Of a DNA stretch of 35,555 nt, positions 1,261 through 22,524 are shown piece by piece (the stretch's first letter is position 1; each line of letters starts with the position of its first letter). A program made the position numbers and the translations under genes. The notes below the pieces were generated by a model. It was given only the letters and a program-made list of their open reading frames with translations. It had not been told where the DNA came from and made no database searches. Location of the stretch: assembly GCA_005799265.1 (NCBI GenBank), contig SYHD01000075.1, positions 1 through 35,555 of the forward strand, written 5' to 3'. This DNA is from Planctomycetia bacterium (GTDB lineage Bacteria; Planctomycetota; Planctomycetia; Gemmatales; Gemmataceae).

Positions 1261-4200
1261 ATGCAACGCCTTCGCTGGATCGCTTTCGCGTTCGTCGTCG
1301 CTTCACTTGCCTGGCTGCCGGCCCTGGGACAGCAGAAAAAAGAAGAGTTGTTCCTTGACCCCATCGACGTCAAGGCCCCGCACATCTCGACCGACAAATC
1401 GGTCAAGTACGATTACGACATCGTCTATGTTCGTACGCCGCGCAAGGGGGACAAAGCGAGCAGTCGCTGGACCGAGATAGCGCATCCGACGATCATGGAC
1501 GCACAGGGCGATCTGATGCTCCTGCATCCTGACGGCAAGGAAGAGGTCCTCGTCGAAGGCGGCGCCGACGGCTCCGTGACCGATCCCTACGTCTCCTTCG
1601 ATGGGCAGTGGGTCTTCTACTCGCACCTCAAGGGGCTGAAAGGAACCAGCCAACACGGGCAGCCGCCGTTTCAAGGCGCCGACATCTTCAAGATCAACGT
1701 CAAGACGAAGAAGATCGTTCAGCTCACGCATCAAGAATGGACGCCGAACACCGGAGCCGCGAAATGGGCGACCACGATGCGCAAGGGGGAGAAGGACACG
1801 ACCTGGTTGAATTATGGTGCGCTCAACATGGGCCCCTGCCCTCTTCCCGGCGGCAAGGTGATCTTTACCTCGAACCGCAACGCCTTCAAGCCGCCGCGGC
1901 ATCCGTCGCCGTGCCTGCAACTTTTCACCATGGACGACGACGGCAAGAACGTCGAGATGATCGGCCATCTCAACATCGGCATGGCGCTGCACCCCGTCAT
2001 CCTCAAAGACGGCCGGGTGATCTTCAGCTCGCTCGAATCGCAGGGGTTGAGGTCGGGCATTCTCTGGGGCCTCTGGCAGATCAATCCCGACGGCACGAAC
2101 TGGGGCCCGGTCCTCAGCGCGCTCTTGCCGGGCGAAGGGGCGCCGAACGCGTTCCACTTCCAGTCGCAGATTTCCGACGAATCGATCATCGCCGAGGAGT
2201 ATTACAATCAGAACAACAGCGGCTTCGGCGGCTATTACAAGATTCCGCCGCAAGTGCCTGAGAAGTACACCAGTTTCGGCCCCGGCTGGACTGGCGACCC
2301 ACGCAATCCGCCCCTGCGCAACGGGCGATTCGCCAACGGTCGCGGCAAGTACTCGCGGCTGCCGTTCAGCCCGTACGGCATCGAATCGTTCACCCGTTTC
2401 GCGAACTTCGGCGAAGGCCCGGCCGACCCGGCCGTCCGCACCGACAAGGATTCGCCGGCCGTAGGTAAAGTTACCCATCCGTCCGGGGCGCCCGACAATC
2501 ACCTGTTGACCTGCTACACGCCCGGCCCCGCCAACCATCAGTATGCCCATTACCCGATGCCCGACGGCGGCCTCTATCTCATCAAGGACGGCAAGGCCAT
2601 CGACGAACCCGCGCAGATGCGGCTCATCAAGAACGATCCCAATTACAACGAGCAATGGCCGCGCGCCGTCGTCCCGTACAAGCGCATCTTCGGCGTCGAT
2701 CAACCAAGGCAGCTAACGCCGCTCGCCAACGACGGCAAGCTGTCCAAGCACTTGCCGGAAGGGACGCCGTACGGACTCGTCGGCACGTCGAGCTTCTACA
2801 AGCGTGAAAGCTACCCCGGCGGCGCGGTCCCGCCTGGCAGCGTCACCGCGAGTTACGCCGGCAAGAAGGTCGGCGGCTACGAGGGACTCGATCCGTTCAA
2901 CACCTCGGAGAACGGCGCATCGATGAACTGGGTCAACCAGGGATCCGACGCGGGCCGCTACTCGAACGACGACATTCACGCCGTCCGCATCCTCGTCATG
3001 GAGCCGACGACCGATCGTCAACAGGGTTACAAATCGGGCCGGCGCTTCTTTAGCCACGCCCAGGAACGCCTGCGCGTGCTCGGCGAGATTCCGCTGCGTC
3101 ATTTCGTCCAAAGCCCAGGGACGGCTGTCCCTGGGCTATCGCAACCGCTCGATCCCGACAACAATCCCGACACGAGTTTCCTCGCCAAGATCCCCGCCGA
3201 CGTCGCGTTCACGTTCCAGACACTCGATAAGCACGGCATGGTTCTCAATATGGCCCAGACGTGGCATCAGGTGCGTTCCGGCGAAATCCGCAACGACTGC
3301 GGCGGCTGCCACGCCCACAGCCAGCAGCCGACGCGGTTCGAAAAAACCGCAGCCGCCAAGCTCGACTATCAGGTGTTCGATCTGACCACGAAGACGCCCC
3401 TCTTGACGACGAAGGCGAAGGACGAATCCAAGCGTCAGTGGGACGCCAAAAACGAGACTGGCCTGCGTTACGAGACGAGCGTCAAGAACGTCGAATACCA
3501 TCGCGACATCAAGCCGCTGCTCGACCGTAGTTGCGTCGCGTGCCACACGACGAACGGCGGGCGTGAGCCCGCTGGTAAGCTCGTCCTCGACGACGACAAG
3601 ATCATGCAAGTCCCGAATCGCCCGAGCGTTCCCGGCACCTACTATCGCCTCGCCATGGATAGCCCGGCCAAGTTCGGCTACAAGCCGGTCATCCCCGCCC
3701 AGCAATGGCGGCAAACGAATGCATCGCGCTACATCCGCGAGTTCCAGTCACGCCGCAGCCTGCTAACGTGGAAGCTCTACGGCCAACGCCTCGACGGCTG
3801 GTCGAACGACGACTTCCCAACGGAAACGATCCCCGGCGACCCCAACACGCTGATGCAAAAGGGCAATGCTATCGCCAACACGCCGCAGAATCGCAACTTG
3901 GCTGACCTCGATTACATCGGCCCGATGTGCCCGCCGCCGGGAGGCAAGGTCCCAGCGTTGACGGATGAAGAGAAGCTCACCTTCGTCCGCTGGATCGATC
4001 TCGGCTGCCCGATCGATCTCGACTACGATCCTGCTGCGCCGCAAGCGAGGGGCCACGGCTGGATGCTCGACGACAACCGCCCGACGCTGACTTTGACCGA
4101 ACCGCGGCCAAACGCAAATGCGCCGCTGACGCGCATCCTCGTCGGCATGCACGATTACTACACCGGCCTCGACGCGGCGGCGTTCACCGTTACAGCCGAC

Positions 4201-4389
4201 TTCGCGATTGACGGCGTCAAACCCGGCGATAACCTGGCGTCCAAGTTCAAGCCCGCGAGCCAGGGCGTCATGGAGTACCGCTTCGCGCAGCCGCTGACGA
4301 TGCTCACAGTCGGCACGCTCACGGTGTCGGTGCGCGATCGCGAGGGCAACGTGACGCGCATCACACGCTCGATCTCAGTCAAGAAGTGA
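1261..4389 (+). CDS. Secreted beta-propeller / dihaem cytochrome c protein, hydrazine synthase alpha (HzsA)-like
   Basis: This is a 1042-residue exported protein. A signal peptide covers residues 1-23 (hydrophobic core, then ALGQ), and AGAGGA at 1249-1254 supports the start. Residues about 80-330 carry TolB/PD40-type propeller blades, with repeats such as SFDGQWVFYS, GGKVIFTSNR and DGRVIFSS. Two covalent haem motifs follow: CGGCH (C680, C683, H684) and CVACH (C758, C761, H762). The C-terminus looks like an Ig-type beta domain. Propeller plus c-haems in this order is the architecture of the HzsA-related family widespread in planctomycetes. In anammox bacteria HzsA is the catalytic subunit of hydrazine synthase, but most relatives lie in non-anammox genomes with unknown function. 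No HzsB/C partners are visible, so anammox chemistry is not implied; a periplasmic redox role is inferred. An in-frame palindrome interrupts residues 618-626. Confidence 0.75.
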   Translation: MQRLRWIAFAFVVASLAWLPALGQQKKEELFLDPIDVKAPHISTDKSVKYDYDIVYVRTPRKGDKASSRWTEIAHPTIMDAQGDLMLLHPDGKEEVLVEGGADGSVTDPYVSFDGQWVFYSHLKGLKGTSQHGQPPFQGADIFKINVKTKKIVQLTHQEWTPNTGAAKWATTMRKGEKDTTWLNYGALNMGPCPLPGGKVIFTSNRNAFKPPRHPSPCLQLFTMDDDGKNVEMIGHLNIGMALHPVILKDGRVIFSSLESQGLRSGILWGLWQINPDGTNWGPVLSALLPGEGAPNAFHFQSQISDESIIAEEYYNQNNSGFGGYYKIPPQVPEKYTSFGPGWTGDPRNPPLRNGRFANGRGKYSRLPFSPYGIESFTRFANFGEGPADPAVRTDKDSPAVGKVTHPSGAPDNHLLTCYTPGPANHQYAHYPMPDGGLYLIKDGKAIDEPAQMRLIKNDPNYNEQWPRAVVPYKRIFGVDQPRQLTPLANDGKLSKHLPEGTPYGLVGTSSFYKRESYPGGAVPPGSVTASYAGKKVGGYEGLDPFNTSENGASMNWVNQGSDAGRYSNDDIHAVRILVMEPTTDRQQGYKSGRRFFSHAQERLRVLGEIPLRHFVQSPGTAVPGLSQPLDPDNNPDTSFLAKIPADVAFTFQTLDKHGMVLNMAQTWHQVRSGEIRNDCGGCHAHSQQPTRFEKTAAAKLDYQVFDLTTKTPLLTTKAKDESKRQWDAKNETGLRYETSVKNVEYHRDIKPLLDRSCVACHTTNGGREPAGKLVLDDDKIMQVPNRPSVPGTYYRLAMDSPAKFGYKPVIPAQQWRQTNASRYIREFQSRRSLLTWKLYGQRLDGWSNDDFPTETIPGDPNTLMQKGNAIANTPQNRNLADLDYIGPMCPPPGGKVPALTDEEKLTFVRWIDLGCPIDLDYDPAAPQARGHGWMLDDNRPTLTLTEPRPNANAPLTRILVGMHDYYTGLDAAAFTVTADFAIDGVKPGDNLASKFKPASQGVMEYRFAQPLTMLTVGTLTVSVRDREGNVTRITRSISVKK
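3112..3137 (+). repeat. Perfect palindrome in frame within the HzsA-like gene
   Basis: The arms AGCCCAGGGAC (3112-3122) and GTCCCTGGGCT (3127-3137) pair perfectly around a GGCT loop. The element starts exactly on a codon boundary and encodes SPGTAVPGL (residues 618-626), between the propeller region and the haem region. A shorter stem, GCGGGC/GCCCGC (3557-3562 and 3567-3572), lies just after the second haem motif and may be a related but weaker case. Confidence 0.7.
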
Positions 4390-4398
4390 GCCATCGTT

Positions 4399-4431
4399 CG
4401 TTTAGCGTTCGCGCCGCGCGAACGCTAAACG
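4399..4431. repeat. CGTTTAGCG-type inverted repeat, copy 1
   Basis: Perfect 15-bp arms (4399-4413 and 4417-4431) surround a CCG loop. The outer ends read CGTTTAGCG and CGCTAAACG, shared with the elements at 10736 and 31145. It lies 10 bases past the stop of the HzsA-like gene and 30 bases before the xdhC start. There is no T-run after it, so it is not a classical intrinsic terminator. Confidence 0.8.
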
Positions 4432-4460
4432 GAATCCGGCGAAACGTATATCATGACAGC

Positions 4461-5543
4461 ATGCGTGAATTGCTTGCCGAACTGAATCGCACCATCGCCG
4501 GCGGCCGGCCGTGCGTCTATTGCTCCGTCGTCGAGACGCGCGGCTCCACGCCGCAGAAGGCCGGCGCCGCCATGCTCGTTTTCCCCGACGGACGCCAGGT
4601 CGGCACCCTCGGCGGCGGCTGCGTCGAGGCCGAGGTCAAACGGCAAGCGCTCGGCACCCTCTCCAGCGACGGCGCGACAAAGACGGATGTGCTGACGTTC
4701 TGCCTCGACGACAACTACGGCTGGGACGACGGCCTGATCTGCGGCGGCCGCATGAGCATTTTAGCCGACCCGATCAACGCCGCGTCCCTACGGTTGCGTG
4801 CCTACTATCAGCACTTCCATCACCTCGTCGAAACCGGCGCCGGCTGCACCGAAGCCGTCGTCATTGCGCCCGAATCCGCGCCGATCGGCAGCCGCTATCT
4901 CTTCGATGTCGCGGGCACGTTGATCGACCAGCTCGGCGATGCGCCGCTCCCCGAGGTCGTGCGTCAAGGGCTGATCCCGCTAACGAAACGGCCCAAGCCC
5001 TGGCATCAGAATGGCGTCGCCTATTTGCCGGTGTTGCCGCGCGTCACGCTTCTGATCGTCGGCGGCGGACACGTCGGCCAGGCGGTGGCGAAGCTCGGCA
5101 GCGACGTCGATTTCGACATCTGGGTCCTCGACGACCGCGCCGCCTACGCCAATGCCACGCGCTTCCCGTCCGCATCCCGCCATCTCGTCGGCGACATCGG
5201 CCAATCGCTGAGCGGCCTCGCGACCGAAATCACGTCGGCAGTCTACGCTCTCATCATCACGCGCGGCCACGCCCACGACGAAGAAGCCCTCTTCCACCTG
5301 GCGACCACCAATGCGGGCTACGTCGGCATGATCGGCAGCAAACGCAAAATCAAGCTCATCTACGAAGACCTGCGCGCGCGCGGCATCCCGCCTGCCGCCC
5401 TGGAAAAGGTGCACGCCCCGCTCGGCTTCCACATCGGCTCGCAGACCGTCCCCGAAATCGCCGTCAGCATCGTCGCCGAACTCATTGCCTGCCGCAACCT
5501 CGGCGCGACGATCCCGGCGGCCCGGCTCCACGTGAAACTCTGA
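4461..5543 (+). CDS. xdhC: XdhC/CoxI-family molybdoenzyme maturation protein
   Basis: This is a 360-residue protein with the two-part XdhC layout. The N-terminal XdhC/CoxI domain has ETRGSTPQKAG near residue 25 and GGGCVEAEV near residue 51. The C-terminal NAD-binding Rossmann domain has IVGGGHVGQA near residue 200 and GMIGSKRK near residue 289. XdhC proteins bind molybdenum cofactor, promote its sulfuration and deliver it to xanthine dehydrogenase-type enzymes in the cytoplasm. The ATG at 4461 is chosen because the family starts close to MRELLAEL; the open frame before it runs through the inverted repeat at 4399-4431 and has no family similarity. No strong ribosome-binding site is seen. No molybdoenzyme gene lies in the window, so its client must be elsewhere. 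Confidence 0.9.
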   Translation: MRELLAELNRTIAGGRPCVYCSVVETRGSTPQKAGAAMLVFPDGRQVGTLGGGCVEAEVKRQALGTLSSDGATKTDVLTFCLDDNYGWDDGLICGGRMSILADPINAASLRLRAYYQHFHHLVETGAGCTEAVVIAPESAPIGSRYLFDVAGTLIDQLGDAPLPEVVRQGLIPLTKRPKPWHQNGVAYLPVLPRVTLLIVGGGHVGQAVAKLGSDVDFDIWVLDDRAAYANATRFPSASRHLVGDIGQSLSGLATEITSAVYALIITRGHAHDEEALFHLATTNAGYVGMIGSKRKIKLIYEDLRARGIPPAALEKVHAPLGFHIGSQTVPEIAVSIVAELIACRNLGATIPAARLHVKL

Positions 5544-5644
5544 TGCGGCGGCGCTGAGCTTGCAAACGGCTACCGCCTCTCCCGCGCATCTGTACAATTT
5601 CTCTCGGCGAACAATTATCGACTCATTCAAAGGAAGCTCTCGTC

Positions 5645-6709
5645 ATGCGCAAGATCCAGATCGGCAACTCCGCGGAAAACGTCGTCGAACGGGCCGACTA
5701 TCCGCCTGAACGCATCAAGGCGATCCTGGGCGGCGAAACCGTCGCCGTCCTCGGCTATGGCGTCCAGGGCCGCGGGCAATCGCTCAACATGAAAGACAAC
5801 GGCGTCAACGTCGTCATCGGCCTGCGCGATCAGAAAGGCAAAGGCTGGGACCTCGCGCAGCAGGACGGCTGGGTCCCCGGCAAGACGCTCCTCTCGCTCG
5901 AAGAAGCGACCACGCGCGGCTCTATTATCCAGTACCTCCTCTCCGACGCCGGTCAAAAAGATCAATGGCCCAAGCTCAAGCCGCTGCTCACCGCCGGCAA
6001 GGCGCTGTACTTTTCGCACGGCTTTAGCATCGTCTACAAGGAGCAGACCGGCGTCATTCCCCCCAAGGACATCGACGTGGTCCTGGTCGCGCCCAAAGGA
6101 TCCGGAACTACGGTTCGCCGACTGTTCCTCGAAGGCAAGGGCATCAACGCCAGCTACGCCATCCATCAGGACGCGACCGGCAAAGCCCTCGATCGCTGTC
6201 TCGCCACGGGCATCGCCATCGGCTCCGGTTATATGTTCGAGACGACCTTTCAAAAGGAAGTCTTCTCGGACCTCACCGGCGAACGCGGCGTCCTCATGGG
6301 CGCGATCTACGGCCTGTGGCTCGCCCAGTATGAAGTGCTGCGCGAGCACGGCCATTCGCCGTCGGAAGCGTTCAACGAGACTGTCGAGGAGGCGACGCAA
6401 TCGCTCTATCCTTTAATCGCGGAAAATGGCATGGACTGGATGTACGCCAACTGCTCGACAACGGCGCAGCGCGGCGCCCTCGACTGGTTCAAGAAATTCC
6501 GCGACGCGACCAAGCCGACCTTCGAGAAGCTGTACCAGAGCGTCGCCAGCGGCGAGGAGACGAAACGCGTGCTCGACGTGAATAGCAAGCCCGACTATCG
6601 CGAGCAGCTCGAAAAGGAGCTGCGCGAAGTCGCCGCCAGCGAGTTGTGGCAAGCGGGCACGGTGGTGCGCTCGCTACGGCCGGAACGGGCGGCGAAGTCG
6701 AAGGGGTGA
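5645..6709 (+). CDS. ilvC: Ketol-acid reductoisomerase
   Basis: This is a 354-residue enzyme of valine, leucine and isoleucine synthesis. It converts 2-acetolactate or 2-aceto-2-hydroxybutyrate to the dihydroxy acid using NADPH and Mg2+ in the cytoplasm. The nucleotide-binding loop GYGVQGRGQ is at residues 37-45. APKGSGTTVRRLF follows mid-protein, and the metal-site helices (GERGVLMG, NETVEEATQSLYPLI) lie in the C-terminal domain. AAAGGAA upstream supports the ATG at 5645. TACAAT near 5593 could be a -10 box, but no -35 box is clear. From memory, the wording of many segments (GWVPGK, LYFSHGFS, ILVAPKGSG-like, GHSPSEAFNETVEEATQSLY, SKPDYREQLEKEL) is closer to fungal mitochondrial Ilv5 than to common short bacterial IlvC. 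No other branched-chain amino-acid genes are adjacent. Confidence 0.95.
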   Translation: MRKIQIGNSAENVVERADYPPERIKAILGGETVAVLGYGVQGRGQSLNMKDNGVNVVIGLRDQKGKGWDLAQQDGWVPGKTLLSLEEATTRGSIIQYLLSDAGQKDQWPKLKPLLTAGKALYFSHGFSIVYKEQTGVIPPKDIDVVLVAPKGSGTTVRRLFLEGKGINASYAIHQDATGKALDRCLATGIAIGSGYMFETTFQKEVFSDLTGERGVLMGAIYGLWLAQYEVLREHGHSPSEAFNETVEEATQSLYPLIAENGMDWMYANCSTTAQRGALDWFKKFRDATKPTFEKLYQSVASGEETKRVLDVNSKPDYREQLEKELREVAASELWQAGTVVRSLRPERAAKSKG

Positions 6710-6746
6710 ACGATTGCAGAGTGCAGATTTAGAATGCAGGTGAAGA

Positions 6747-7001
6747 ATGCCCCAAGTCTTGATGACGGATGAGGCGTTCGACCAATTCGACGCGCTGCCG
6801 AAGAAAATCAAGGAGCGTGTTCGGAAACTGACCAAACGCCTGGAATCTTGGCCAGTCGTTAGCGGCGTCAAAGCCCTCTCGGGTAAACTGGCCGGCTGGT
6901 ATCGGATTCGGACCGGCGATTATCGGGTACGCTTTCGCGTCGATGGCGAGATGATCACAATCGACAAGATCGGCCATCGAAAGGACATTTATGAGGACTA
7001 A
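6747..7001 (+). CDS. RelE/ParE-family toxin of a type II toxin-antitoxin pair
   Basis: This is an 84-residue basic protein with the RelE/ParE fold pattern. Two N-terminal helices (EAFDQFDALPKKIKERVRKL) are followed by beta strands containing GWYRIRTGDYRVRFRV and a short tail, IGHRKDIYE. The GxYRIRxGDYRvrf segment is characteristic of RelE-type mRNA interferases and ParE-type toxins; the sequence alone does not separate ribosome-dependent cleavage from gyrase poisoning. AGGTG about 8 bases upstream supports the start. It overlaps the antitoxin gene by 11 bases, toxin first, as in HigBA-type operons. The short leader (6715-6742) contains TGCAGA-type repeated words like those in simple repeats of other planctomycete and cyanobacterial genomes. 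Confidence 0.85.
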   Translation: MPQVLMTDEAFDQFDALPKKIKERVRKLTKRLESWPVVSGVKALSGKLAGWYRIRTGDYRVRFRVDGEMITIDKIGHRKDIYED

Positions 7002-9307: not shown

Positions 9308-9337
9308 GAGAAATTTGTAATATTTGCAAAAATCCTC

Positions 9338-10085: not shown

Positions 10086-10742
10086 ATGCTTGAGCGCGTT
10101 CTCGAACCGGAAGTGATGGATTCCGCGGAGGAAGCCCGCGATTACGATGCGATGGACCATTCGCACGTCAATCAGCTGTTCGTCAGCGACCTTCTCCAGC
10201 TGCGGAGCGAAATCAACAACGCTCTCGACGTCGGTTCCGGCACCGCGCAAATCCCGATCGAGTTGTGCCGACGGCATCCGACGGCGCACGTCATCGCCAT
10301 CGACATGGCGGAGCATATGCTGCGCGTCGGGCAGGCGAATCTTGAGCGGGAGAAGCTGACAGATCGCATCGAGCTGCGGCTATGCGACGCCAAACGCATG
10401 CCGTTCGCGGATCGCACTTTCGACGTCGTCATGTCGAACAGCATCGCACATCATATCCCGGAGCCGTTCGCCGTCTTCGCCGAGATGGCGCGCTTCGTTA
10501 AGCCTGGCGGCGTGATCTTCGTGCGCGATCTATTGCGGCCCAGCGATGATTCGGCCCTGCGCGGCTTCGTGCAGAAATATGCCCACGACGCCAATGCTCA
10601 TCAGCAGAAGATGTTCGGCGATTCGCTGCACGCGGCCCTGACGCTGGAGGAGGTGCGGGCACTGGTGACGCGCCTGGGCTTCGACGGCATGACCGTGAAG
10701 CAGACGAGCGATCGACACTGGACTTGGACCGCATTCGTTTAG
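10086..10742 (+). CDS. Class I SAM-dependent methyltransferase (UbiE/Methyltransf_11-like)
   Basis: This is a 218-residue cytoplasmic protein with the canonical Rossmann methyltransferase motifs. Motif I is LDVGSGTAQIPIEL (about residues 53-66), the acidic strand end is IAIDMAEHML (about 75-84), motif II/III is CDAKRMPFADRTFDVVMSNS, and VKPGGVIFVRDL is in the C-terminal half. The family transfers methyl groups from S-adenosylmethionine to small molecules or lipids; the substrate here cannot be told. An N-terminal helix (DYDAMDHSHVNQLFV) may cap the active site. The last two codons and the TAG stop lie inside the inverted repeat 10736-10786, so the repeat supplies the natural end of the gene. 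The ATG at 10086 has only a weak GGA-type ribosome-binding site. Confidence 0.85.
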   Translation: MLERVLEPEVMDSAEEARDYDAMDHSHVNQLFVSDLLQLRSEINNALDVGSGTAQIPIELCRRHPTAHVIAIDMAEHMLRVGQANLEREKLTDRIELRLCDAKRMPFADRTFDVVMSNSIAHHIPEPFAVFAEMARFVKPGGVIFVRDLLRPSDDSALRGFVQKYAHDANAHQQKMFGDSLHAALTLEEVRALVTRLGFDGMTVKQTSDRHWTWTAFV

Positions 10743-10786
10743 CGCTTGTAGGGCAGCACCGGGCGCTGCCCTACAAGCGCTAAACG
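10736..10786. repeat. CGTTTAGCG-type inverted repeat, copy 2, with extended inner stem
   Basis: Perfect 22-bp arms (10736-10757 and 10765-10786) enclose a 7-base loop. The outer ends CGTTTAGCG/CGCTAAACG match copies 1 and 3; the inner stem TGTAGGGCAGC/GCTGCCCTACA is unique to this copy. It contains the stop codon of the methyltransferase. It ends one base before the AGGA ribosome-binding site (10787-10790) of the next gene, so it fills nearly the whole gap between the two genes. Confidence 0.9.
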
Positions 10787-10797
10787 AGGATCTGAAA

Positions 10798-11554: not shown

Positions 11555-11618
11555 AGGAAAAAGTAAAAAGGCAAGAATCACGCCTTCACTTTTTCCTTTT
11601 GCCTTTTTACTTTTTCCT
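11555..11618. repeat. Long A/T-rich inverted repeat between convergent genes (possible bidirectional terminator)
   Basis: Perfect 20-bp arms, AGGAAAAAGTAAAAAGGCAA (11555-11574) and its complement (11599-11618), enclose a 24-base loop. The right side contains an internal repetition (CACTTTTTCCTTTTGCCTTTTTACTTTTTCC). It starts four bases after the mlaE-like stop and its last base is the first base of the minus-strand DUF1501 stop codon. T-runs on both strands suit termination in both directions, but the repeat words also recur at 10036, which suggests a dispersed element. Confidence 0.7.
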
Positions 11619-12967
11619 TAGCGTAAGATCCCGTCAATCACGCTCCCCGTGCTCAACGGCAACGGCCGATTGAGCGCGTCGCGCACCTCGGTATGTGGAT
11701 CGATCCCCAAAAGATGAAACATCGTTGCCGACAGGTCTTCGGGGCGCACCGGATCGCGCGACGGATACGCCCCGACGCGATCGCTGACGCCGTGCACGTA
11801 GCCGCCCTTGACGCCGCCGCCCGCCATCAGCACGGTGTAGCATTGCGGCCAATGGTCGCGGCCGGCGATATTGTTGATGCGCGGGCTACGTCCGAATTCG
11901 CCCGCCCAGACGACCAGCGTATCGTCCAAGAGGCCGCGTACGTGCAGGTCTTCGATTAAAGTCGGCAGCGTCCAGTCGGTGATCGGCAGCAAGTAGTCGT
12001 TGAGGATGGGATACATCGGCACGCTGTTGAACCCGTGCGTGTCCCAGCCGCCGGAGACGATCGACTGCCCGCCAATCGTTGCCGCGAAGTACACCGTCAC
12101 GAACTTGACGCCGACTTCGACGAGCCGACGCGCCAGCAAGCAGCCTTGCCCGTAGGTGGTGCGGCCATAGCGTTCGCGCATGGCCAACGGTTCGCTCGAC
12201 AGGTCGAACGCTCGACGAAAACGGGGGCTCGTCAACATTGTGTGCGCGCGTTGATAGTGGGCGTCGATGCCGCGCGCGCGGCCGGAGATGTCGAGGATCT
12301 CCGTCGAGCGGTCGATCAAATCCATCATCGCGCGGCGATTGTTCAGTCGCTCGGCCGTGATGCCGGCGGGGAGGCTCAACTCCGGCAAACGGAAATCGTC
12401 GCCATTCGGATCTTGCTGAATGAAGAACGGATCGTAAGTCTGCCCAAGGAAACTCGCGTGCTGCCCCGGCGTGATCGAGCCGTCCGAGATGACGTGCGGA
12501 TACGACACGAATGTGGGCGTGCCGGTTTCCGCCGGCGCAAAGCGATCGACGACCGAACCGTACGCGGGAAATAACTCGCGCGAATCGCGCAGCCGTTGAT
12601 CGTCGGTCGGCGGCGCGTAGCCGGTGAGGCTGTAGTAGCCCGCCGAGTTGTGATTGCGCATCTCATGGCGCACGGAGCGTACGAGCGTCACCTTGTCCAT
12701 GTGCGGCGCCATGCGCGGCAGCATCTCGCAAATCTGGATGCCCGGCGCCGACGTCTGCATGGGCCGATAGATGCCGCGAAACTCAGGCGGCGTCCCCGGC
12801 TTCATGTCGAAGGAATCGAGGTGGCTCGGCCCGCCATATTGATGGAGGAAGATGACCGACTTGACGCGTGCGCGGCGCGCCGGCTTCGCTTCGAGGAGTG
12901 GAGCGAGCTGCGCGCCTAGAACGCCGGCGGCGCCGATTTGCAGCAGGGTGCGGCGAGTCATGTGCAT
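11618..12967 (-). CDS. Tat-exported DUF1501 protein
   Basis: This is a 449-residue protein of the DUF1501 family, abundant in planctomycetes and related to the alkaline phosphatase/sulfatase fold. The N-terminus MHMTRRTLLQIGAAGVLGAQ is a twin-arginine signal, so the protein is exported folded. Family segments include VIFLHQYGGPSHLDSFDMKP near residue 40, the TLVRSVRHEMRNHNSAGYYS stretch, VSGGWDTHGFN, and VVWAGEFGRSPRIN with GRDHWPQCYT toward the C-terminus. These carry the conserved Asp, His and Gly residues expected to bind metal. The start at 12967 is chosen over an upstream in-frame ATG because GGAG is nine bases before it and the Tat motif begins there. DUF1501 genes usually follow DUF1549/DUF1553 cytochrome genes; none is adjacent here. 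The molecular function is unknown. Confidence 0.9.
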   Translation of the reverse strand: MHMTRRTLLQIGAAGVLGAQLAPLLEAKPARRARVKSVIFLHQYGGPSHLDSFDMKPGTPPEFRGIYRPMQTSAPGIQICEMLPRMAPHMDKVTLVRSVRHEMRNHNSAGYYSLTGYAPPTDDQRLRDSRELFPAYGSVVDRFAPAETGTPTFVSYPHVISDGSITPGQHASFLGQTYDPFFIQQDPNGDDFRLPELSLPAGITAERLNNRRAMMDLIDRSTEILDISGRARGIDAHYQRAHTMLTSPRFRRAFDLSSEPLAMRERYGRTTYGQGCLLARRLVEVGVKFVTVYFAATIGGQSIVSGGWDTHGFNSVPMYPILNDYLLPITDWTLPTLIEDLHVRGLLDDTLVVWAGEFGRSPRINNIAGRDHWPQCYTVLMAGGGVKGGYVHGVSDRVGAYPSRDPVRPEDLSATMFHLLGIDPHTEVRDALNRPLPLSTGSVIDGILR

Positions 12968-14645: not shown

Positions 14646-15752
14646 ATGACTACCATGAAAGCGCTCGTCAAGAAAAAGCCCGAAGTCGGCGTTTGGCTCG
14701 AAGACGTGCCGACGCCGAACATCGGCATCAATGATGTTCTCATCAAAGTCCTGCGCACCGGCATCTGCGGGACCGATCTGCACATCTACAAGTGGGACGC
14801 CTGGGCCCAGAAGACCATCCCCGTGCCGCTCGTCATCGGGCATGAGTTTGTCGGCGCGATCGTCGAGGTCGGCTCCAACGTCAAGGACTTTCACGCCGGC
14901 GAGATCGTCTCCGGCGAAGGCCACGTCGTGTGCGGGCGGTGCCGAAACTGTTTGGCCGGCCGTCGGCATCTTTGTAAAGACACGCAAGGCGTCGGCGTCA
15001 ATCGCCCGGGCGCGTTCGCGGAGTATATCGCCCTGCCTTACTCCAACGTCTGGGTGCACGAGAGCAAGGATGAAGGCAGAAGGATGAAGGATGAAAATGG
15101 CGCCGCTTCCTCCTTCAGCCTTCAGCCTTCCGCCTTGAGACGCGACATCCAATCGATTTTCGATCCCTACGGCAATGCAGTCCACACGGCGCTCTCGTTC
15201 GACCTCCTCGGCGAGGACGTGCTCATCACCGGCGCCGGGCCCATCGGCTGCATGGCGGCGGCCATCGTCAAGCACGCCGGGGCACGTCACGTCGTCGTCA
15301 CCGACATGAACCCTTATCGCCTCGAGCTCGCCAAGAAGCTCGGCGCCACCCGCGTCGTCGATGTCCGCTCCGAGACCATCAAGGACGTGCAGAAATCGCT
15401 CGGCATGAAGGAAGGTTTCGACGTCGGCCTGGAGATGTCCGGCAACGGCAACGCCTTCCGCGACATGCTCGCCAACATGGCCCACGGCGGAAAAATAGCG
15501 ATCCTCGGCATCCCCGACCGCGAGATCGCCATCGACTGGAACCTCGTCATCTTCAACATGCTCACGCTCAAAGGCATCTATGGCCGCGAGATGTACGAGA
15601 CGTGGTATTACATGACGGTACTGCTGCAATCGGGCCTCGACATCAGCCCGATCGTGACACACCGCTACGGCTGGCAGGACTACCAGAAGGGATTCGACGC
15701 AATGTTGTCGGGCAACTGCGGCAAGGTGGTGCTGACGTGGGCGGAGGGGTGA
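14646..15752 (+). CDS. tdh: L-threonine 3-dehydrogenase
   Basis: This is a 368-residue zinc-dependent dehydrogenase of the medium-chain family. It oxidises L-threonine to 2-amino-3-oxobutyrate with NAD+ in threonine catabolism. The catalytic zinc ligand is C41 in [10 protein letters not shown], with H66/E67 in GHEFVG. The structural zinc cysteines are C96, C99, C102 and C110. The Rossmann motif is GAGPIG. Sequence identity to the E. coli enzyme is evident by eye ([39 protein letters not shown]). The E. coli enzyme has 341 residues; the extra length lies almost wholly in residues 141-165, encoded by an inserted inverted repeat just before [19 protein letters not shown] five bases upstream supports the ATG at 14646. 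A partner 2-amino-3-ketobutyrate ligase is not adjacent. Confidence 0.92.
15066..15136 (+). repeat. In-frame heptad-repeat hairpin inside tdh
   Basis: The left side is built of 7-base units (AAGGATG, AAGGCAG, AAGGATG, AAGGATG). The right side is an imperfect complement (CTTCCTC, CTTCAGC, CTTCAGC, CTTCCGC, CTT), with about five mismatches in 30 positions. It encodes residues 141-165, ending [10 protein letters not shown], where E. coli Tdh has only a few residues. Heptad elements encoding HPSAF- or QPSAL-type peptides are known to me as dispersed repeats in planctomycete genomes. Confidence 0.75.
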
Positions 15753-16808: not shown

Positions 16809-16994
16809 ATGTACGCGAACCTTCGCGTCGTGTTTGTGCTTCTTGTGGCGCTCTCGTTGCTGAACGGCTGCGGCCGAAATCGGGGCAACGAAGGGAACGC
16901 AGACGATCCCGCAAATGCTGTCAAGGATGTTTCCCCAGCGGACCTGGACAAGATCAACTCCGAGTTGCCGCCCGGCCAAGCCATTGCCCGCTGA
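16809..16994 (+). CDS. Small lipoprotein downstream of DUF1559
   Basis: This is a 61-residue protein with a lipoprotein signal: MYANLRVVFVLLVALSLLNG then Cys21 (lipobox LLNGC). The mature part is about 40 residues, hydrophilic and disordered-looking (Asn/Asp rich), and ends in a short helix (SPADLDKINSELPPGQ). GAGGTGGA upstream supports the ATG. It lies 40 bases after the DUF1559 stop and is probably co-transcribed with it. Small lipoproteins of this kind commonly accompany DUF1559 genes in planctomycetes, so a shared surface function is inferred. The longer open frames that overlap it run through the DUF1559 gene and are not real. Confidence 0.75.
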   Translation: MYANLRVVFVLLVALSLLNGCGRNRGNEGNADDPANAVKDVSPADLDKINSELPPGQAIAR

Positions 16995-17131
16995 CGAACA
17001 CGAGTAAACGCCGGCGCCGTCTCGCCGCGCTTGCCGACCGATCTTGCCGGCTTGCCAAGCGAATTGTATGTCATCTGCCAATCTTCTCGTGCCGGTGTTT
17101 TTATTACCGCACGTTTACACGGAGGCCCGTC

Positions 17132-19456
17132 ATGCGCAATTTCGCGTCGCTCTTCGGTGTTTTGCTGATCGCGCCGTTAGCGTTTGGCCAGGCTTTGCCC
17201 GGAACGAAACTGCTCGAAGGCAAGGACGACTTAGCCAAGGTCATGGTCGAAGGCATCGATCGTTATCTCACCAAGCAGACCGATCTCGCCGTCAAGGATC
17301 GCGCCAAGCACTGGAAGCCCGATTTCTCCTCCGCGAAGGCGTTCGATCAATCCGTGCAGCCGAATCGCGAACGCTTTCGCAGGATGATCGGCGTCATCGA
17401 TGAGCGCATCGTCCCGGTGACGATGACGAAGATCGCGACCGTCGAGCAAGCGTCGCTCGTCGCCGACACGCCGCACTACAAGGTGTTCGCGGTGCGCTGG
17501 TCCGTGCTGCCCGGCATGAACGGCGAGGGCTTGCTGCTGGAGCCAACTGGCAAACCGAAAGCCTGCGCCGTCGCGATCCCCGACGCCGACTGGACGCCGG
17601 AGCAATTGATCGGCGTTTCACCAGGCGTGCCGAAGGACGGGCAGTTCGCGCGCCGGCTGGCCGAGGACGGCTATCGCGTCATCGTGCCGACGCTCATCAA
17701 TCGCAAGGACGATTATTCCGGCAGCCCGCGCCTCGGCATCTTCACCAATCAGCCGCACCGCGAGTTCGTCTATCGCATGTCGTATCAAATGGGCCGACAC
17801 GTCATCGGCTACGAAGTGCAAAAAGTGCTCGCCGCCGTGGATTGGCTCGCGAAGCCCCCTCACCCCCGGCCCCTCTCCCCCGGAGGGGAGAGGGGGGAAA
17901 TGCCCATCGAAGTCTGGGGCTACGGCGAAGGCGGCCTGATCGCGCTCTATTCTGCCGCCATCGACACGCGCATCAAGAACACGTACGTCTCGGGCTACGT
18001 CAACAATCGCAACGAGCTGCACAGGGAGCCGATTTATCGCAACGTCTTCGGCTTGCTGCGCGAGTTCGGCGACGCGGAATTGATGATGCTCGCCGGCGCG
18101 CCGAATAACGAACGCAAGGTCAACGTCGAGTACGCGAAGGAGCCGAACATCGCTGGTCCACCGACGCCGAAGAAGGGACGACGCGGCGGCGCGGCCCCCG
18201 GCATGCTTAACTTCACCGATCCGAAGACGGCGTTTCTCGAATACGAACGCTTTCGCAAGCTGTCAAGCTTCGGCGGCCGACATGCGACGACGCTCGAAGC
18301 CGCTCCATTCACCGATCTGATGGACCCACCGATCGACGCCGACAGCCTCAAACGCGCCAAACTGCGCGAGGAACGTGTGACAACGCCGAAAGAGCTGCGC
18401 CTCGCTTACGAACCCGAGGCACGGCAAAAACGCCAGTTCGACGAGGCCGTCCATTTCACGCAAAACCTGCTCGGGCCTTCAGCGGCGAAACGGCAGGCCA
18501 ACGTCTGGTCGAAGCTCAACACCTCGTCGCTCGATGCGCTCAAGAAATCGCAGGAACCGCTGCGGCAACAGTTCCACGAGAACATCATCGGCAAGCTGCC
18601 TGAAGCGAAGACGCCCATGAATCCACGCACGCGGCTCATCTACGAGACGCCCAAGTGGAAGGGCTACGAGGTCGTGCTCGATCTCAACGAGGACGTGATC
18701 TGCTACGGCATCTTGCTCGTGCCCAACGACATCAAGAAGGGAGAGAAGCGGCCCGTCGTCGTCTGTCAACACGGGCTCGAAGGCCGGCCGACCGATGTGT
18801 GCGATCCGAAGACGAAGACGAAGTACTACCACTCGTTCGGCGCCCAGCTCGCCGATCGCGGCTTCGTCGTGTTCGCGCCGCAGAACCCGTACATCTTCCA
18901 GAATCAATTCCGCCAGCTCGTCCGCAAGGGCAATCCGCTCGGCCTATCGCTGTATTCGTTCATCGTCGCCCAGCACGAGAAGATCATCGATTTTCTGGTC
19001 ACGCTCGAATTCGTCGATCCCGCCCGCATCGCCTACTACGGCCTCTCCTACGGCGGCAAGGTCGCCATGCGCATCCCGGCGCTCGTGCTGCGTTATTGCT
19101 TGTCGATCTGCTCCGGCGATTTCAACGAATGGATCTGGAAGAACATCACGCTCGACTGGCAGGGCAGCTACATGTTCACCGGGGAATACGAGATGTACGA
19201 GTTCGACCTCGGCAACACCTTCAACTACGCGGAGATGGCAGCGTTAATCGCGCCCAGGCCGTTCATGGTCGAACGCGGCCACTCCGACGGCGTCGGCCTC
19301 GACGAATACGTCGCCTTCGAGTACGCCAAGGTGCGCCGCTTCTACGCGCAAGCCGGCATCGCCGACCGCACCGAGATCGAGTTCTTCGTCGGCGGCCACG
19401 TCATCCAGGGCCAGGGGACGTTCGCATTTCTGCAGCGGCATCTGAACTGGAAATGA
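17132..19456 (+). CDS. Secreted two-module alpha/beta hydrolase (dienelactone hydrolase / acetyl xylan esterase-like)
   Basis: This is a 774-residue exported protein. The signal peptide is residues 1-20 (FGVLLIAPLAFGQ), and GGAGG six bases upstream fixes the ATG at 17132. The C-terminal module (about residues 480-774) has an intact nucleophile elbow GLSYGG with S639, an acid-loop region around ERGHSDGVGLDEY, and a likely catalytic histidine at 756 (GGHVIQGQG). This fits dienelactone-hydrolase/acetyl-xylan-esterase type enzymes acting on ester bonds of polysaccharides. The N-terminal module (about 130-330) has the same layout, but its elbow reads GYGEGG (263-268) with Gly where Ser should be, so it is probably inactive. 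A palindrome encoding PPHPRPLSPGGERG (242-255) sits in the loop before that elbow. The substrate is unknown. Confidence 0.8.
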   Translation: MRNFASLFGVLLIAPLAFGQALPGTKLLEGKDDLAKVMVEGIDRYLTKQTDLAVKDRAKHWKPDFSSAKAFDQSVQPNRERFRRMIGVIDERIVPVTMTKIATVEQASLVADTPHYKVFAVRWSVLPGMNGEGLLLEPTGKPKACAVAIPDADWTPEQLIGVSPGVPKDGQFARRLAEDGYRVIVPTLINRKDDYSGSPRLGIFTNQPHREFVYRMSYQMGRHVIGYEVQKVLAAVDWLAKPPHPRPLSPGGERGEMPIEVWGYGEGGLIALYSAAIDTRIKNTYVSGYVNNRNELHREPIYRNVFGLLREFGDAELMMLAGAPNNERKVNVEYAKEPNIAGPPTPKKGRRGGAAPGMLNFTDPKTAFLEYERFRKLSSFGGRHATTLEAAPFTDLMDPPIDADSLKRAKLREERVTTPKELRLAYEPEARQKRQFDEAVHFTQNLLGPSAAKRQANVWSKLNTSSLDALKKSQEPLRQQFHENIIGKLPEAKTPMNPRTRLIYETPKWKGYEVVLDLNEDVICYGILLVPNDIKKGEKRPVVVCQHGLEGRPTDVCDPKTKTKYYHSFGAQLADRGFVVFAPQNPYIFQNQFRQLVRKGNPLGLSLYSFIVAQHEKIIDFLVTLEFVDPARIAYYGLSYGGKVAMRIPALVLRYCLSICSGDFNEWIWKNITLDWQGSYMFTGEYEMYEFDLGNTFNYAEMAALIAPRPFMVERGHSDGVGLDEYVAFEYAKVRRFYAQAGIADRTEIEFFVGGHVIQGQGTFAFLQRHLNWK
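17855..17897 (+). repeat. In-frame REP-like palindrome inside the two-module hydrolase gene
   Basis: The core arms CCCCTCTCCCC (17870-17880) and GGGGAGAGGGG (17885-17895) pair perfectly around CGGA. A C-rich flank (CCCCCTCACCCCCGGC) extends it on the left. Read in frame it gives PPHPRPLSPGGERG. This is the peptide encoded by a dispersed palindrome seen in many unrelated bacterial genomes. A related element lies outside genes at 32724-32757. Confidence 0.8.
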
Positions 19457-19608
19457 ATAGCGGGTTTGACTGGTTTCACGACGCTACTCGACACTTACCA
19501 TTGGCCACGATTTTTGTACAAAGGGAATAAGAACGAGACGTTTCCTCGATTGCGGATAATCGCCGGAACGGGCTCGGAGATGTTCAGCACTATTTTAGGG
19601 AGTCGACC

Positions 19609-20046
19609 ATGTTGAAGCACTATGCTCTGCTTGTCACCTTCTTCCTGACCCCGGCGCTGGGCCTGGCCCAGGATAACCCCACGGTGGCAAAGATCACTCA
19701 GTTCATCAAGACCAAGATGAACGCCGACGTCAAACCAAAGGAATTGCCCAACAAATGGGTGACATGGGAGACGCCCGATGACCATTTCAACATCTTTTAT
19801 CGGCCGGCGGACGCCAGCATTATCTTTGAATACCCCTTTGCGAATCTGAAGGCCGCGGTGGATAAGGCCAATGAATGGAATCGAGATCATGCCACGCTGT
19901 CCCACGCCGTCGTTGTGAAAGATCAGGTCATGCTGGAGGCCATTATCAGCGTGCGCGGCGGAGCGACCGAAGGTTACATTGGAAGGTTCTACGATCGGTT
20001 GCAAGCCGAGCGATTGAAGTTCGTCAAATTCTGTTCGGATAAATAA
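19609..20046 (+). CDS. Secreted YbjN-like protein
   Basis: This is a 145-residue protein with a signal peptide (residues 1-21, TFFLTPALGLAQ) and an AGGGAG ribosome-binding site nine bases before the ATG. The mature part follows the YbjN/CesT-like alpha-beta pattern. A helix (TVAKITQFIKTKM) is followed by strands (WETPDDHFNIFYRP, ASIIFEYPF), a helix (LKAAVDKANEWNRDH), strands (HAVVVKDQVMLEAIISVRGG) and a final helix. YbjN proteins are poorly understood and bind partner proteins in some cases; most are cytoplasmic, so export is notable. The assignment is by pattern only, not by a search. It follows the hydrolase gene by 150 bases on the same strand and ends shortly before a strong palindrome at 20063-20091. 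Confidence 0.55.
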   Translation: MLKHYALLVTFFLTPALGLAQDNPTVAKITQFIKTKMNADVKPKELPNKWVTWETPDDHFNIFYRPADASIIFEYPFANLKAAVDKANEWNRDHATLSHAVVVKDQVMLEAIISVRGGATEGYIGRFYDRLQAERLKFVKFCSDK

Positions 20047-20062
20047 ACTCATCCGCGCGAGC

Positions 20063-20091
20063 CTGGTTCCCAAACGGAGTTTGGGAACCAG
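20063..20091. repeat. Perfect palindrome of the GGTTCCCAAAC type
   Basis: CTGGTTCCCAAA (20063-20074) pairs perfectly with TTTGGGAACCAG (20080-20091) around CGGAG. The sequence matches a highly iterated palindrome that I recall from planctomycete and cyanobacterial genomes. It lies between the YbjN-like gene and the amidohydrolase remnant, converging from both sides, and could end transcription, although it lacks a T-run. Confidence 0.75.
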
Positions 20092-20094
20092 AGG

Positions 20095-20157
20095 TCAATT
20101 CTTGCGCACAAACACGACTTGGCCTCCCACCATTGTCGTCAGCACGCGCGTCTCCGG
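20095..20157 (-). pseudogene. C-terminal remnant of an amidohydrolase gene
   Basis: Directly after the stop of the triple solute-binding gene, and in the same frame, the minus strand reads PETRVLTTMVGGQVVFVRKN and TGA. The phrase VLTTMVGG-x-VVF is the typical last strand pair of metal-dependent amidohydrolases (YtcJ/imidazolonepropionase-like). Only the last 20 codons survive. The upstream body is replaced by the solute-binding gene, which indicates a deletion or recombination boundary at about 20157. Confidence 0.6.
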
Positions 20158-22524
20158 TCACTCGTCCTTCTTGTTTGGCGGAACGTAAGGGACATGCCAG
20201 CGTGCGAACACTTTGGCCAGTTCACCCGTTTGGGCCAGTTCCGCCATGGCCTCGTTGAGGGCCGCGAGCAAGTCGGCATCGGCCTTGCGAACGACGGCAC
20301 AGATCGGAAAGCGGTCCACCTTCGCTCCGTCGTGAAGCTTGAGCTTGCCCGGCCATTTTTGCTCGGCCAGCCACTGGCTGCGTGCCGAGATCACATAGCC
20401 GGCCTTCACCTCGTTCTTGGCGACCGCCTCAAGGATAGTGTCCAGACTGGGATAAGACTTCAGCACGGTCGCCTCGGGAAGGCCACGCACAATGATCCCT
20501 TGTTCCACGGCCAACGGCTCCTTACCGAGACACTCCACGGTCGGCGGCTCTGTGGCGTCGTTCCGCGCCACCAAGCGGTAACTCGTCAGGTAATAGGGCC
20601 TGGAATAGAGCACGCGGTTGGCGAAGCGATCATCGGGCATGACCCCCAGCATCACGTCGCAGAGTTTTTTCGTTGCCAATCTTGAGGGATAAGAATCGTG
20701 CTGTGAATAACCCCAGTAGATTTTCAACGCGACTCCCAATTTTTTCGCCAGCAGTCCGGCGAGTTCATAATCCAGCCCGGCCGGCGTGGGATGCGCCGTC
20801 GAGAAAGGCAGGTTGTTGTGATCGAGTCCGACGACGAGCGTTCCCGCGGAGCGAATGCGTTCAAGGCCGGCGTAGGGATTCTTGGAGGTTAACACTTTCT
20901 GCATCTGCGGTTCCAGGCCGCGCTCAACCACGGGATGCCGGACGACGTCAGAAGTCTCCTTGTCTCCTTGTCTCCCTGCCTCCTTGCCTTTGGCTTTCTC
21001 CGGGAACGGCACAAAGTAAGGCATCTGGTAGCGGGCCAGGGCCTTCTGGACCGTGCCGTCCTTGATGAGCTTGGCGAGGGCCGCATCGACGTGGCGTTTG
21101 AGTTCGTCATCGCCATGGCGCATGGCGATCGCGATGTTCCAGTGGTCCTCCGGCACATAATCGGGCACCAACTCCACGGCGAAATCGGGCGAGGTATGGA
21201 CCAGCCAGGCGACGTTGGCCCACAGATACGCGTAGTCGATGGTGCTGTCATGCAGGCCCTTGAGCACCGCCAGTTGATTGCGGTACAGCGTGCGCAAGTA
21301 GCCGCGCTGGCGGAGCGAATAGTCGGCGATCGACCCGGCCTCCGTGCCCAGCCGCCGCGCCTTGTCGCCCTTCAATTCCGCCAGGGCCTTGACACGCGGG
21401 CCTTTCTTGCGCACAAGCAGCACATAGCCGGTGCCGTAATACGGTTGCGAGAAGAGCAGTTTGCCCGCAAGGTCGTCATCGTCCTCGACGGCGTTGTCGT
21501 CGATGGGGGTGCCGAAGGCCAGGTCGCTCTCACGCTCGACGAGTTTCCCGATGGCCGTGGCGCGCTGGACGTCGAGCCAGTCGATGCGCAGTTTGACGCC
21601 CATCTCCTTGGCCAGAGCGTGCAATAATTCGACGTCGAAACCAGGCCGATCCCCCTTGGCGCTGGAATAGGGCAAATTGGCGGGATCCATGCTGACCACC
21701 ATCACGCCGCGTTCTTGAATGCGTTTCCAGGTGTTGAAGGAGGTCGTCTTGCGTCCGGCGCCTGTAAATGGCGGACGGTAGACCACGCCGTGCGCGGCGT
21801 AGACCTTGCGGATTTGTCCAGATTCCGCCAGCTCGGCGAGGGCCTTGTTGATCTCCACCACCAGCCCGGCGTCCTTGGCCCGGACCGCCATGGCCATGTT
21901 CCAGTGCTCGCGCGGCACATAGTCCTTGACCAACTCCAGTTTGAGTTTGGGATGGTGATGAAGATGCCAGGAGGCAAAATCGGCGTCGACAAAGCCGGCG
22001 TCCAGGTTTTCTTTATGAAACTGGTCGAGGAGCTCTTCGCGCGTCTTGAACTGGCCGACCTTGTAGTCAATTTCCGAGAGCGCCACCGTGCCGACCACGA
22101 CGCCGACGCGTTTGCCTCGCAAATCCGCCAAGGAGCCGATGCCCTTGGCATCTTTGGCGATCACCAGCCCAAACTGGCTGCCGGCGTAGGGCACGCTCCA
22201 GGCGATGTCCTTGGCGCCGTCGGGGTCGTGGGGATGGCCGAGGATGATGTCGCAGCGGTTCTCGCGCAGGCACTTCCGCGAACACGCCGGGCTGGCGCAC
22301 CAGTGTACTTCCAGCGGGCGTCCGAGGCTCTTGCTGATCAGCTCCGCCAGTGCCAGGTCTAACCCTTGCGGCTTCCCGTCCGTGGTTTTGCCGGTGCGCG
22401 GCATGGCCGCAGCTTCGGCGCAGACGATGAGGGGTTTCGGTTTTTCCTGGGCGTACACAGATTGCGGAACGCAAGCGAGGGCTACCAACATATATGCCCA
22501 GATTGTTTTTCTTGACGATGTCAT
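20158..22524 (-). CDS. Triple-domain XoxJ/MxaJ-like periplasmic solute-binding protein
   Basis: This is a 788-residue exported protein with a signal peptide (about residues 1-25, LVALACVPQSVYAQ). Three family 3 solute-binding domains lie in tandem, at about 33-255, 270-505 and 557-785. Each begins with a strand and ligand loop (LIVCAEAAAMP, VVSMDPANLPYS, VVGLDHNNLPFS). Each contains a 'CD/SD-hinge' (RCDIILG, ESDLAFG, LCDVMLG) and ends in a HWN/FPI strand and helix. The 'NNLPFS' form matches the subfamily associated with quinoprotein dehydrogenases (MxaJ/XoxJ), thought to help PQQ alcohol dehydrogenases mature or work in the periplasm. The PQQ dehydrogenase gene lies upstream on the same strand. 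GGAGGA nine bases before the ATG at 22524 fixes the start. Domain 1 has an extra Cys cluster (WCASPACSRKCLRENRC). An 8-base repeat lies in the linker between domains 2 and 3. Confidence 0.85.
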   Translation of the reverse strand: MTSSRKTIWAYMLVALACVPQSVYAQEKPKPLIVCAEAAAMPRTGKTTDGKPQGLDLALAELISKSLGRPLEVHWCASPACSRKCLRENRCDIILGHPHDPDGAKDIAWSVPYAGSQFGLVIAKDAKGIGSLADLRGKRVGVVVGTVALSEIDYKVGQFKTREELLDQFHKENLDAGFVDADFASWHLHHHPKLKLELVKDYVPREHWNMAMAVRAKDAGLVVEINKALAELAESGQIRKVYAAHGVVYRPPFTGAGRKTTSFNTWKRIQERGVMVVSMDPANLPYSSAKGDRPGFDVELLHALAKEMGVKLRIDWLDVQRATAIGKLVERESDLAFGTPIDDNAVEDDDDLAGKLLFSQPYYGTGYVLLVRKKGPRVKALAELKGDKARRLGTEAGSIADYSLRQRGYLRTLYRNQLAVLKGLHDSTIDYAYLWANVAWLVHTSPDFAVELVPDYVPEDHWNIAIAMRHGDDELKRHVDAALAKLIKDGTVQKALARYQMPYFVPFPEKAKGKEAGRQGDKETSDVVRHPVVERGLEPQMQKVLTSKNPYAGLERIRSAGTLVVGLDHNNLPFSTAHPTPAGLDYELAGLLAKKLGVALKIYWGYSQHDSYPSRLATKKLCDVMLGVMPDDRFANRVLYSRPYYLTSYRLVARNDATEPPTVECLGKEPLAVEQGIIVRGLPEATVLKSYPSLDTILEAVAKNEVKAGYVISARSQWLAEQKWPGKLKLHDGAKVDRFPICAVVRKADADLLAALNEAMAELAQTGELAKVFARWHVPYVPPNKKDE
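20954..20985 (-). repeat. Four 8-base units in frame in the domain linker of the triple XoxJ-like gene
   Basis: On the plus strand the units are GTCTCCTT, GTCTCCTT, GTCTCCCT and GCCTCCTT. On the coding strand they give KEAGRQGDKETS (about residues 514-525), between solute-binding domains 2 and 3. The QGDKET peptide is the product of a dispersed simple repeat that I recall from cyanobacterial and planctomycete proteins. Confidence 0.75.

Follow-up and report, generated by a model that had tools for sequence, protein, structure and literature searches.

The window, that is, the whole 35.6-kb stretch of DNA analysed here, belongs to a Gemmataceae genome assembly of 6.47 Mb in 372 contigs (87% complete). 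Four of its protein genes carry unrelated short repeats in frame, which we call PAL, HEP, CTC and the octamer array (Table 1). All four had been reported in a preliminary description made from the sequence alone; each was confirmed in the window sequence, its position matching the one first given exactly or to a few bases, and a home-made gene caller based on codon usage identified all four hosts as open, coding-like genes. When the repeats were folded against dinucleotide shuffles, PAL (z −5.9) and HEP (z −4.1) formed strong hairpins, and the window copy of CTC, which is C/G-rich, gave no significant hairpin (z −0.9). The encoded peptides had been described as hydrophilic, which holds for HEP but not for PAL, whose peptide (SPGTAVPGLS) is Pro/Gly-rich and uncharged. 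In-gene copies of PAL, HEP and CTC together numbered 3 in the window versus 3 (PAL 2, HEP 1, CTC 0) in a 243-kb sample of the same genome that was picked by contig number and is otherwise unselected. The window is thus richer than the genome average, and part of the impression it makes is due to a lucky window.

Table 1. Positions in the window of the in-gene repeats, their host genes and hairpins at gene 3' ends.
Feature	Position	Strand	Basis
PAL palindrome (AAAGCCCAGGGACGGCYGTCCCTGGGCTTT family), 30 nt, read QSPGTAVPGLS	3110..3139		
PAL host: HZS_alpha-domain protein (HzsA-like), one among several paralogues	1261..4389	+	Pfam
HEP inverted heptamers (GAAGGNN facing CCTTCNN units), 73 nt, 25 residues	15065..15137		
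HEP host: L-threonine 3-dehydrogenase (tdh)	14646..15752	+	Pfam
CTC hairpin, 43 nt, read PPHPRPLSPGGERGE	17855..17897		
CTC host: two-module alpha/beta-hydrolase-like protein	17132..19456	+	weak DLH match (Pfam)
Octamer array TCTCCTTG, between solute-binding modules 2 and 3	20954..20986		
Octamer host: triple SBP_bac_3-module gene	20158..22458	-	Pfam
CGTTTAGCG-class hairpin, intergenic, 9 nt after stop codon	4399..4431		
TCGTTTAGCG hairpin overlapping stop of gene ending at 10742	10735..10787		
CGTTTAGCG hairpin, 10 nt after gene ending at 31134	31145..31182		

A search of the source genome with the PAL 24-mer, allowing up to 3 mismatches, returned 30 forward and 29 reverse matches, among them about 7 copies with imperfect arms. 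The paired-arm pattern gave 26 matches. Two of these (L010 and L089) are different hairpins in intergenic DNA; the other 24 have a common core with point variants, 19 of them reading exactly GCCCAGGGAC-NNNN-GTCCCTGGGC, and the copy at L088 has a longer hairpin loop. All 24 intact-arm copies lie within called genes (the roughly 7 imperfect-arm copies being outside this count), an outcome with a chance of 0.015 under random placement at a coding fraction of 0.84. PAL contains no stop codon in any of the six frames. When the reading frames of 47 genic copies (24 from the source genome and 23 from relatives) were compared, 30 encoded SPGTAVPG, 16 KAQGRPSLG and 1 KPRDGRPWA, a bias with a binomial p of 1.8e-7 under independence of the copies, an assumption that a few orthologous pairs violate. 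This bias suggests that selection acts on the encoded peptide; target choice could produce it instead.

When 21 PAL host genes were scanned, 19 had a Pfam match and two (L003 and L084) had none; L014 and L082 were outside the scan. The hosts include a class I tRNA synthetase (Ile/Leu/Met/Val group), which we take to be of the IleRS type from its domain layout, an SRP54/FtsY-type GTPase, an E1/transketolase protein, an aldehyde dehydrogenase, a class III aminotransferase and a tricorn-like peptidase, along with four DUF1501 and three clear DUF7133 proteins, among others. These hosts bear on the idea that the repeats are artefacts of assembly or gene calling. The assembly is of the metagenome type, with the contig number and completeness given above, the gene caller is home-made, and one frameshift described below (L276) is possibly a sequencing error, but an artefact is extremely improbable: the IleRS-type gene carries the same PAL both in the source genome and in an independent assembly, Baikal-deep-G160 (G012; L185), the complete genome of Limnoglobus roseus has 4 genic and 11 non-genic copies among the 15 examined, and nearly all scanned hosts have a Pfam match. 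For PAL, this explanation is refuted.

HEP produced 73 matches in the source genome, corresponding to 33 sites, of which 10 are in genes, 12 outside, 6 between close genes and 5 overlapping a gene end. Its copies are often inverted pairs in which GAAGGATG/GAAGGCGG units recur. CTC produced 181 matches; the 63 sites classified, namely those in the loci retrieved, comprise 29 in genes, 27 outside, 5 between genes and 2 overlapping a gene end. The octamer yielded 3 matches with up to 3 mismatches, two being the window array itself and the third a single other place with 3 mismatches. Reversed control patterns gave 0 matches in the genome scans for the repeats. Multi-copy repeat classes, as proposed in the preliminary description, were thus borne out by genome search for PAL, HEP and CTC and are refuted for the octamer, which was rejected as a dispersed family; its array is an unexplained simple sequence that is essentially single-copy. 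The triple SBP_bac_3 fusion gene that holds it has a close orthologue in 0 of 12 relatives.

Plain simple-sequence expansion, in which slippage and local duplication would lengthen dispensable loops with no dispersed element involved, fits the octamer array and the tandem part of HEP, and loops and linkers tolerate changes in length. As an account of the whole set it is quite unlikely, because PAL is non-tandem and near-identical at 24 places in the source genome and occurs in other planctomycete genomes as well, CTC recurs throughout the genome, and HEP is so often an inverted pair of recurring units. For PAL and CTC, expansion is already refuted.

The loop that carries HEP in Tdh was read in 18 orthologues. 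In the window the insert follows NVWVHE. The same loop holds an octamer inverted repeat in two genomes of the genus (G008 and G010) and a GAGTGGCG repeat in a third (G007), all in frame; a C/G-rich insert, also in frame, is found in G016 from another genus. The fold z values of these inserts were −4.1 for the window, −2.6 for G008, −3.8 for G010, −2.8 for G007 and −1.7 for G016. The loop is empty and native in three congeners (G009, G011 and G012) and in ten more distant orthologues. Empty alleles of the genus read PNIP or AKIP there; these four native residues are missing from the filled alleles of the window, G007, G008 and G010, which represent three classes. The window peptide, which the preliminary description had taken for an insertion, is accordingly absent from distant orthologues, and the solved enzymes 5kia and 2d8a (PDB) are likewise without it.

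In an AlphaFold model of the window Tdh, of modest quality (mean pLDDT 68.7, 18 sequences), the insert at residues 140–162 had a pLDDT below 50 and no helix or strand; stretches 93–109, 113–121, 172–184 and 296–320 scored below 50 likewise, so that the model gives weak support. Branches within the genus were not resolved in a Tdh tree, and a single gain followed by losses or swaps is thus indistinguishable from several gains. Strict patterns did not re-find the octamer of G008 or the repeat of G007 in 200 and 149 kb, respectively, of their own genomes, which leaves the family status of these two unproven.

A second loop, in the HzsA-like proteins, showed a comparable variety. Its native form of 4–5 residues is present in 13 of 27 aligned rows. 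Within the source genome, three members, including the window gene, have PAL there and a fourth has HEP; other inserts or longer loops occur in G007, G008, G010, G012 and G014. Orthologues of the window gene itself have a 4-residue native loop in G012, G008 and G010 (83–84% identical) and 9 residues in G007. When four of the other inserts were folded, two were strong hairpins (L274, z −7.6; L273, −4.0) and two were not (L269, −1.3; L280, +0.1). The AlphaFold model of the window protein (75.8) puts most of the PAL peptide, residues 618–627, in a loop flanked on either side by a two-residue bridge. HZS_alpha proteins are multi-member in the genus, with 8 matches in the source genome, some of which are pieces of one gene, and 3–9 in each same-genus genome.

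The hydrolase loop is occupied by CTC in the window and, at the same position, by a CTC-type copy in G008; G009 has a different hairpin there (z −4.9), and the loop is shorter in most of the remaining 16 rows. Orthologue pairs with different classes were also found elsewhere: PAL in L087 versus a CTC-like insert in L379 (90% identical), and CTC in L070 versus PAL in L196 (77–79% identical). In a further pair (82% identical), the second PAL of L001 stands against a sequence in L207 that resembles half of another hairpin. Among 90 genic sites, with pairs whose insertion point fell outside the aligned stretch excluded, insertion points were at most 8 columns apart in 25 of 78 homologous pairs versus 2.7 expected if uniform, and different-class insertion points in 12 of 41 versus 1.5 expected, pairs within a family not being independent. 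A homologue spanning the site was available for 41 of 63 host genes of the source genome (the 22 without one were dropped); for 34 of these 41, at least one homologue had no more than 4 extra residues, by a crude measure in which distant homologues count as well. The filled Tdh and HzsA-like sites have lost native residues, and no clean insertion with target duplication was seen there. That the same loops hold different repeat classes in sister species goes beyond what the preliminary description saw in a single window.

A repeat was counted as lying in a gene when an open frame runs through its site. Since this label requires an open frame, breaks were sought separately with an independent score for each flank; sites close to the end of a locus were set aside (PAL 1, HEP 1, CTC 5). 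The two flanks share a single open coding frame at 15 of 23 PAL, 6 of 33 HEP and 16 of 63 CTC sites; the remaining PAL sites comprise one with differing frames (L084), five with one coding flank, one with neither and the one near an end. This scoring gave six candidate gene breaks, 5 at HEP and 1 at CTC, and Pfam searches of both flanking genes revealed no split gene at any of them. Four have different Pfam families on each side (nuoC/nuoD, CinA/dioxygenase, PfkB/class I tRNA synthetase, and WD40/HlyD, where the HlyD score is below the cutoff), and two have a Pfam match on one flank only.

Two PAL copies near the gene end at L084, where the flank frames differ, may break a frame. PAL lies at the end of similar-looking genes at L084:1463-2086 (two copies) and at L197:4741-5316 of Limnoglobus roseus (one copy), and EGAWVWDFR precedes it in both. 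In an HzsA-like paralogue of G008 (L276:3063-3127), the frame shifts directly after a hairpin insert of the SPDRKGG type, a shift that could stem from a sequencing error; G008 also has a further fragmentary HzsA-like copy with a stop (G008:C246). The shift at L276 and the possible break at L084 indicate that frame keeping is not universal. For HEP, full-length copies outside called genes have a mean of 0.67 of 6 frames open (n=9), and each of the seven full-length genic copies has one or two open frames.

Genes are not enriched in hairpins as such. In the 243-kb sample of the source genome, 4 perfect hairpins were observed in genes versus 1–9 in five codon shuffles, and the corresponding values were 6 versus 2–6 in G012, 0 versus 0–3 in G009, 3 versus 1–3 in G013 and 3 versus 1–3 in G039. 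PAL makes up 2 of the 4 in the source genome and 3 of the 6 in G012, the longest included. The mechanism proposed in the preliminary description, one that inserts repeats without breaking frames, is not needed: PAL is 30 nt long and open in all frames, selection can explain the rest, the L276 insert sits at a frameshift, and in-gene perfect hairpins as a whole do not exceed the codon-shuffle null.

A wider form of that proposal is that a frame-aware machinery puts hairpins into coding sites or exchanges them there, or that new elements home to old hairpins (palindrome swapping). It would account for different classes at one orthologue position, for the four native residues missing from filled Tdh alleles and for intact-arm PAL being exclusively genic in the source genome. 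Loop tolerance combined with selection predicts the same pattern, however, and the length of PAL and its six open frames keep the frame automatically, while the frameshifted L276 and the absence of overall in-gene hairpin enrichment count against a machinery; we regard it as unlikely. A frame-aware insertion machine is not supported by these data and, given the properties of PAL and selection, is not needed. It is also conceivable that the hairpins, which are stable in messages, are taken out or bypassed, in the RNA or during translation, and that the peptide is never made; skipped elements are known in some mitochondria. This is very improbable here, because the Tdh, hydrolase and HzsA-like inserts compared (except L276) keep the frame and are free of stops, which would be needless if they were skipped, and because the near avoidance of one PAL frame (1 of 47) suggests that the peptide is visible to selection.

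When the genome_contigs collection was scanned for exact PAL, 61 of 61 stretches hit were from planctomycetes. The core pattern occurred in 9 of 102 genomes of the order, with 47 copies in G012, 19 in the source genome, 17 in Limnoglobus and 1–4 in each of the other six. In the loci retrieved from relatives, 23 of 65 copies are genic and 42 non-genic, and 33 of the latter are no more than 60 nt from a gene 3' end according to the gene calls made here. In several of the relatives' copies the arms vary on both sides with pairing kept. The ratio of genic to non-genic copies is 24/0 (intact arms) in the source genome versus 18/22 in Baikal-deep-G160 (40 examined; Fisher, 1.6e-6). Compared like for like with the exact 28-mer, it is 11/0 versus 18/22 (p 0.001), and the comparison with Limnoglobus roseus gave p 0.0002. 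A model of residence at 3' ends does not predict the lack of non-genic intact-arm copies in the source genome. The hairpin at 4399–4431, behind a stop codon, occupies the usual hairpin place in this genome, and the longest hairpins of the genus are intergenic.

The most probable explanation, which we hold with fair confidence, is that the repeats are dispersed hairpin elements of several unrelated families whose genic copies survive mainly as stop-free, frame-keeping loop inserts. PAL, HEP and CTC are multi-copy, and PAL prefers gene 3' ends in relatives; several families of short palindromic elements would have dispersed in this Gemmataceae lineage, with a usual position in relatives a few bases after a stop codon, and their copies probably move or get copied. 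Some copies would have entered genes, where they are found in frame, and those that survived would mostly be the ones with an open frame and a whole number of codons, placed in loops and replacing a few native loop residues. PAL, 30 nt long and without a stop in six frames, would be pre-adapted to this. Such inserts are presumably translated into the protein. Selection, rather than target choice, probably made the pattern. The same loop would be hit repeatedly because few loops tolerate such inserts, and repeated hits would leave sister species with different classes, or none, at a homologous site, as in the empty and differently filled sites observed. Tolerated loop insertion is the best-supported reading because in-gene hairpins are not enriched, the longest hairpins are intergenic, native residues are lost, the frame is broken at L276 and none of the families was linked to a transposase or other mover.

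A bolder reading, which we consider rather unlikely, is that Gemmataceae loops are exchange sites at which later families replace the resident hairpin by a hairpin-directed process. Filled Tdh alleles without the four native residues are what swapping after one ancestral fill predicts. If this were so, orthologues would cycle through unrelated in-frame cassettes and each species would keep its own set of loop peptides.

Protein-coding palindromes are best known from Rickettsia, where reduced genomes complicate interpretation (PMC2229807, PMC10969869); titles cited in PMC2229807 also refer to palindromes of Wolbachia and Methanocaldococcus. No report of in-frame palindromes in Gemmataceae was found by title or abstract in the open-licence literature. 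The comparison with Rickettsia palindromic elements (RPE) made in the preliminary description is apt. Like RPE, the present elements are palindromic and multi-copy, with several classes per genome, and are found both between genes and, in frame, within unrelated conserved genes. For the Rickettsia guanylate kinase, PMC2229807 describes a comparison of activity and stability, in E. coli, of the enzyme with its insert and without it. PAL, HEP and CTC are multi-copy and in frame in unrelated genes, unlike the octamer; PAL and HEP also fold into hairpins, the window copy of CTC not significantly. They differ in length, RPE being given as 105–146 bp (PMC2229807) or ~150 bp (PMC10969869) against 30 nt for PAL and 43 and 73 nt for the window copies of CTC and HEP, and in that different classes occupy the same loop in sister species. 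The exact scan, made with PAL alone, found planctomycetes only, and an exact match is blind to distant relation. The elements thus work like RPE but by length are not members of them.

REP elements of the GTAG and CGTC superfamilies are described as short palindromes mostly next to gene 3' ends, with some in ORFs, and as occurring in some Planctomycetes (PMC3733652). Of the non-genic PAL copies in relatives, 33 of 42 are close to a gene 3' end, against 0 of the 24 intact-arm copies in the source genome; the PAL consensus has no GTAG or CGTC end tag, and no common end tag was seen in the 26 PAL-pattern sites. By end tag, PAL is not a GTAG/CGTC REP. Different REPs near the same recB site in two Xanthomonas species, as given in PMC3733652, are the nearest precedent found for same-site insertion. 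HEP, for its part, has seven-base units. Cyanobacterial STRR are short tandem heptanucleotide repeats that also consist of seven-base units, but HEP often consists of two heptamer arrays in inverted orientation that make up a single hairpin.

An RPE-like phenomenon is thereby described in planctomycetes with genomes of ~6 Mb or more, not of the reduced Rickettsia type, with hosts that include IleRS-type, SRP54/FtsY-type and threonine dehydrogenase genes. Sister species in which one loop is empty or holds one class or another offer replicate comparisons, from which it may be learned how repeat DNA gives rise to new protein segments and which loops accept them. Annotators should be warned that the peptides SPGTAVPGL, KDEGGRMKDE..SSFILHPS and PHPRPLSPGG are repeat-derived.

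Several further repeats were observed, mostly outside genes. The CGTTTAGCG...CGCTAAACG hairpin class, found at or just after stop codons at three places in the window (4399-4431, 10735-10787 and 31145-31182), is common in the genus; its half-sites were 1 genic and 11 non-genic in the sample of the source genome and 4 and 19 in G012. GCTTGCGGC designates another repeat class. An intergenic inverted repeat at 11555-11619 consists of CTTTTTC heptamers (AGGAAAAAGTAAAAAGGCAA facing its complement), a layout that recalls HEP. Non-genic perfect hairpins (L309-L368) numbered 578–997 per Mb in G009, the source genome and G012 versus 193–196 in G013 and G039, a density ~3–5 times higher in the genus of the window.
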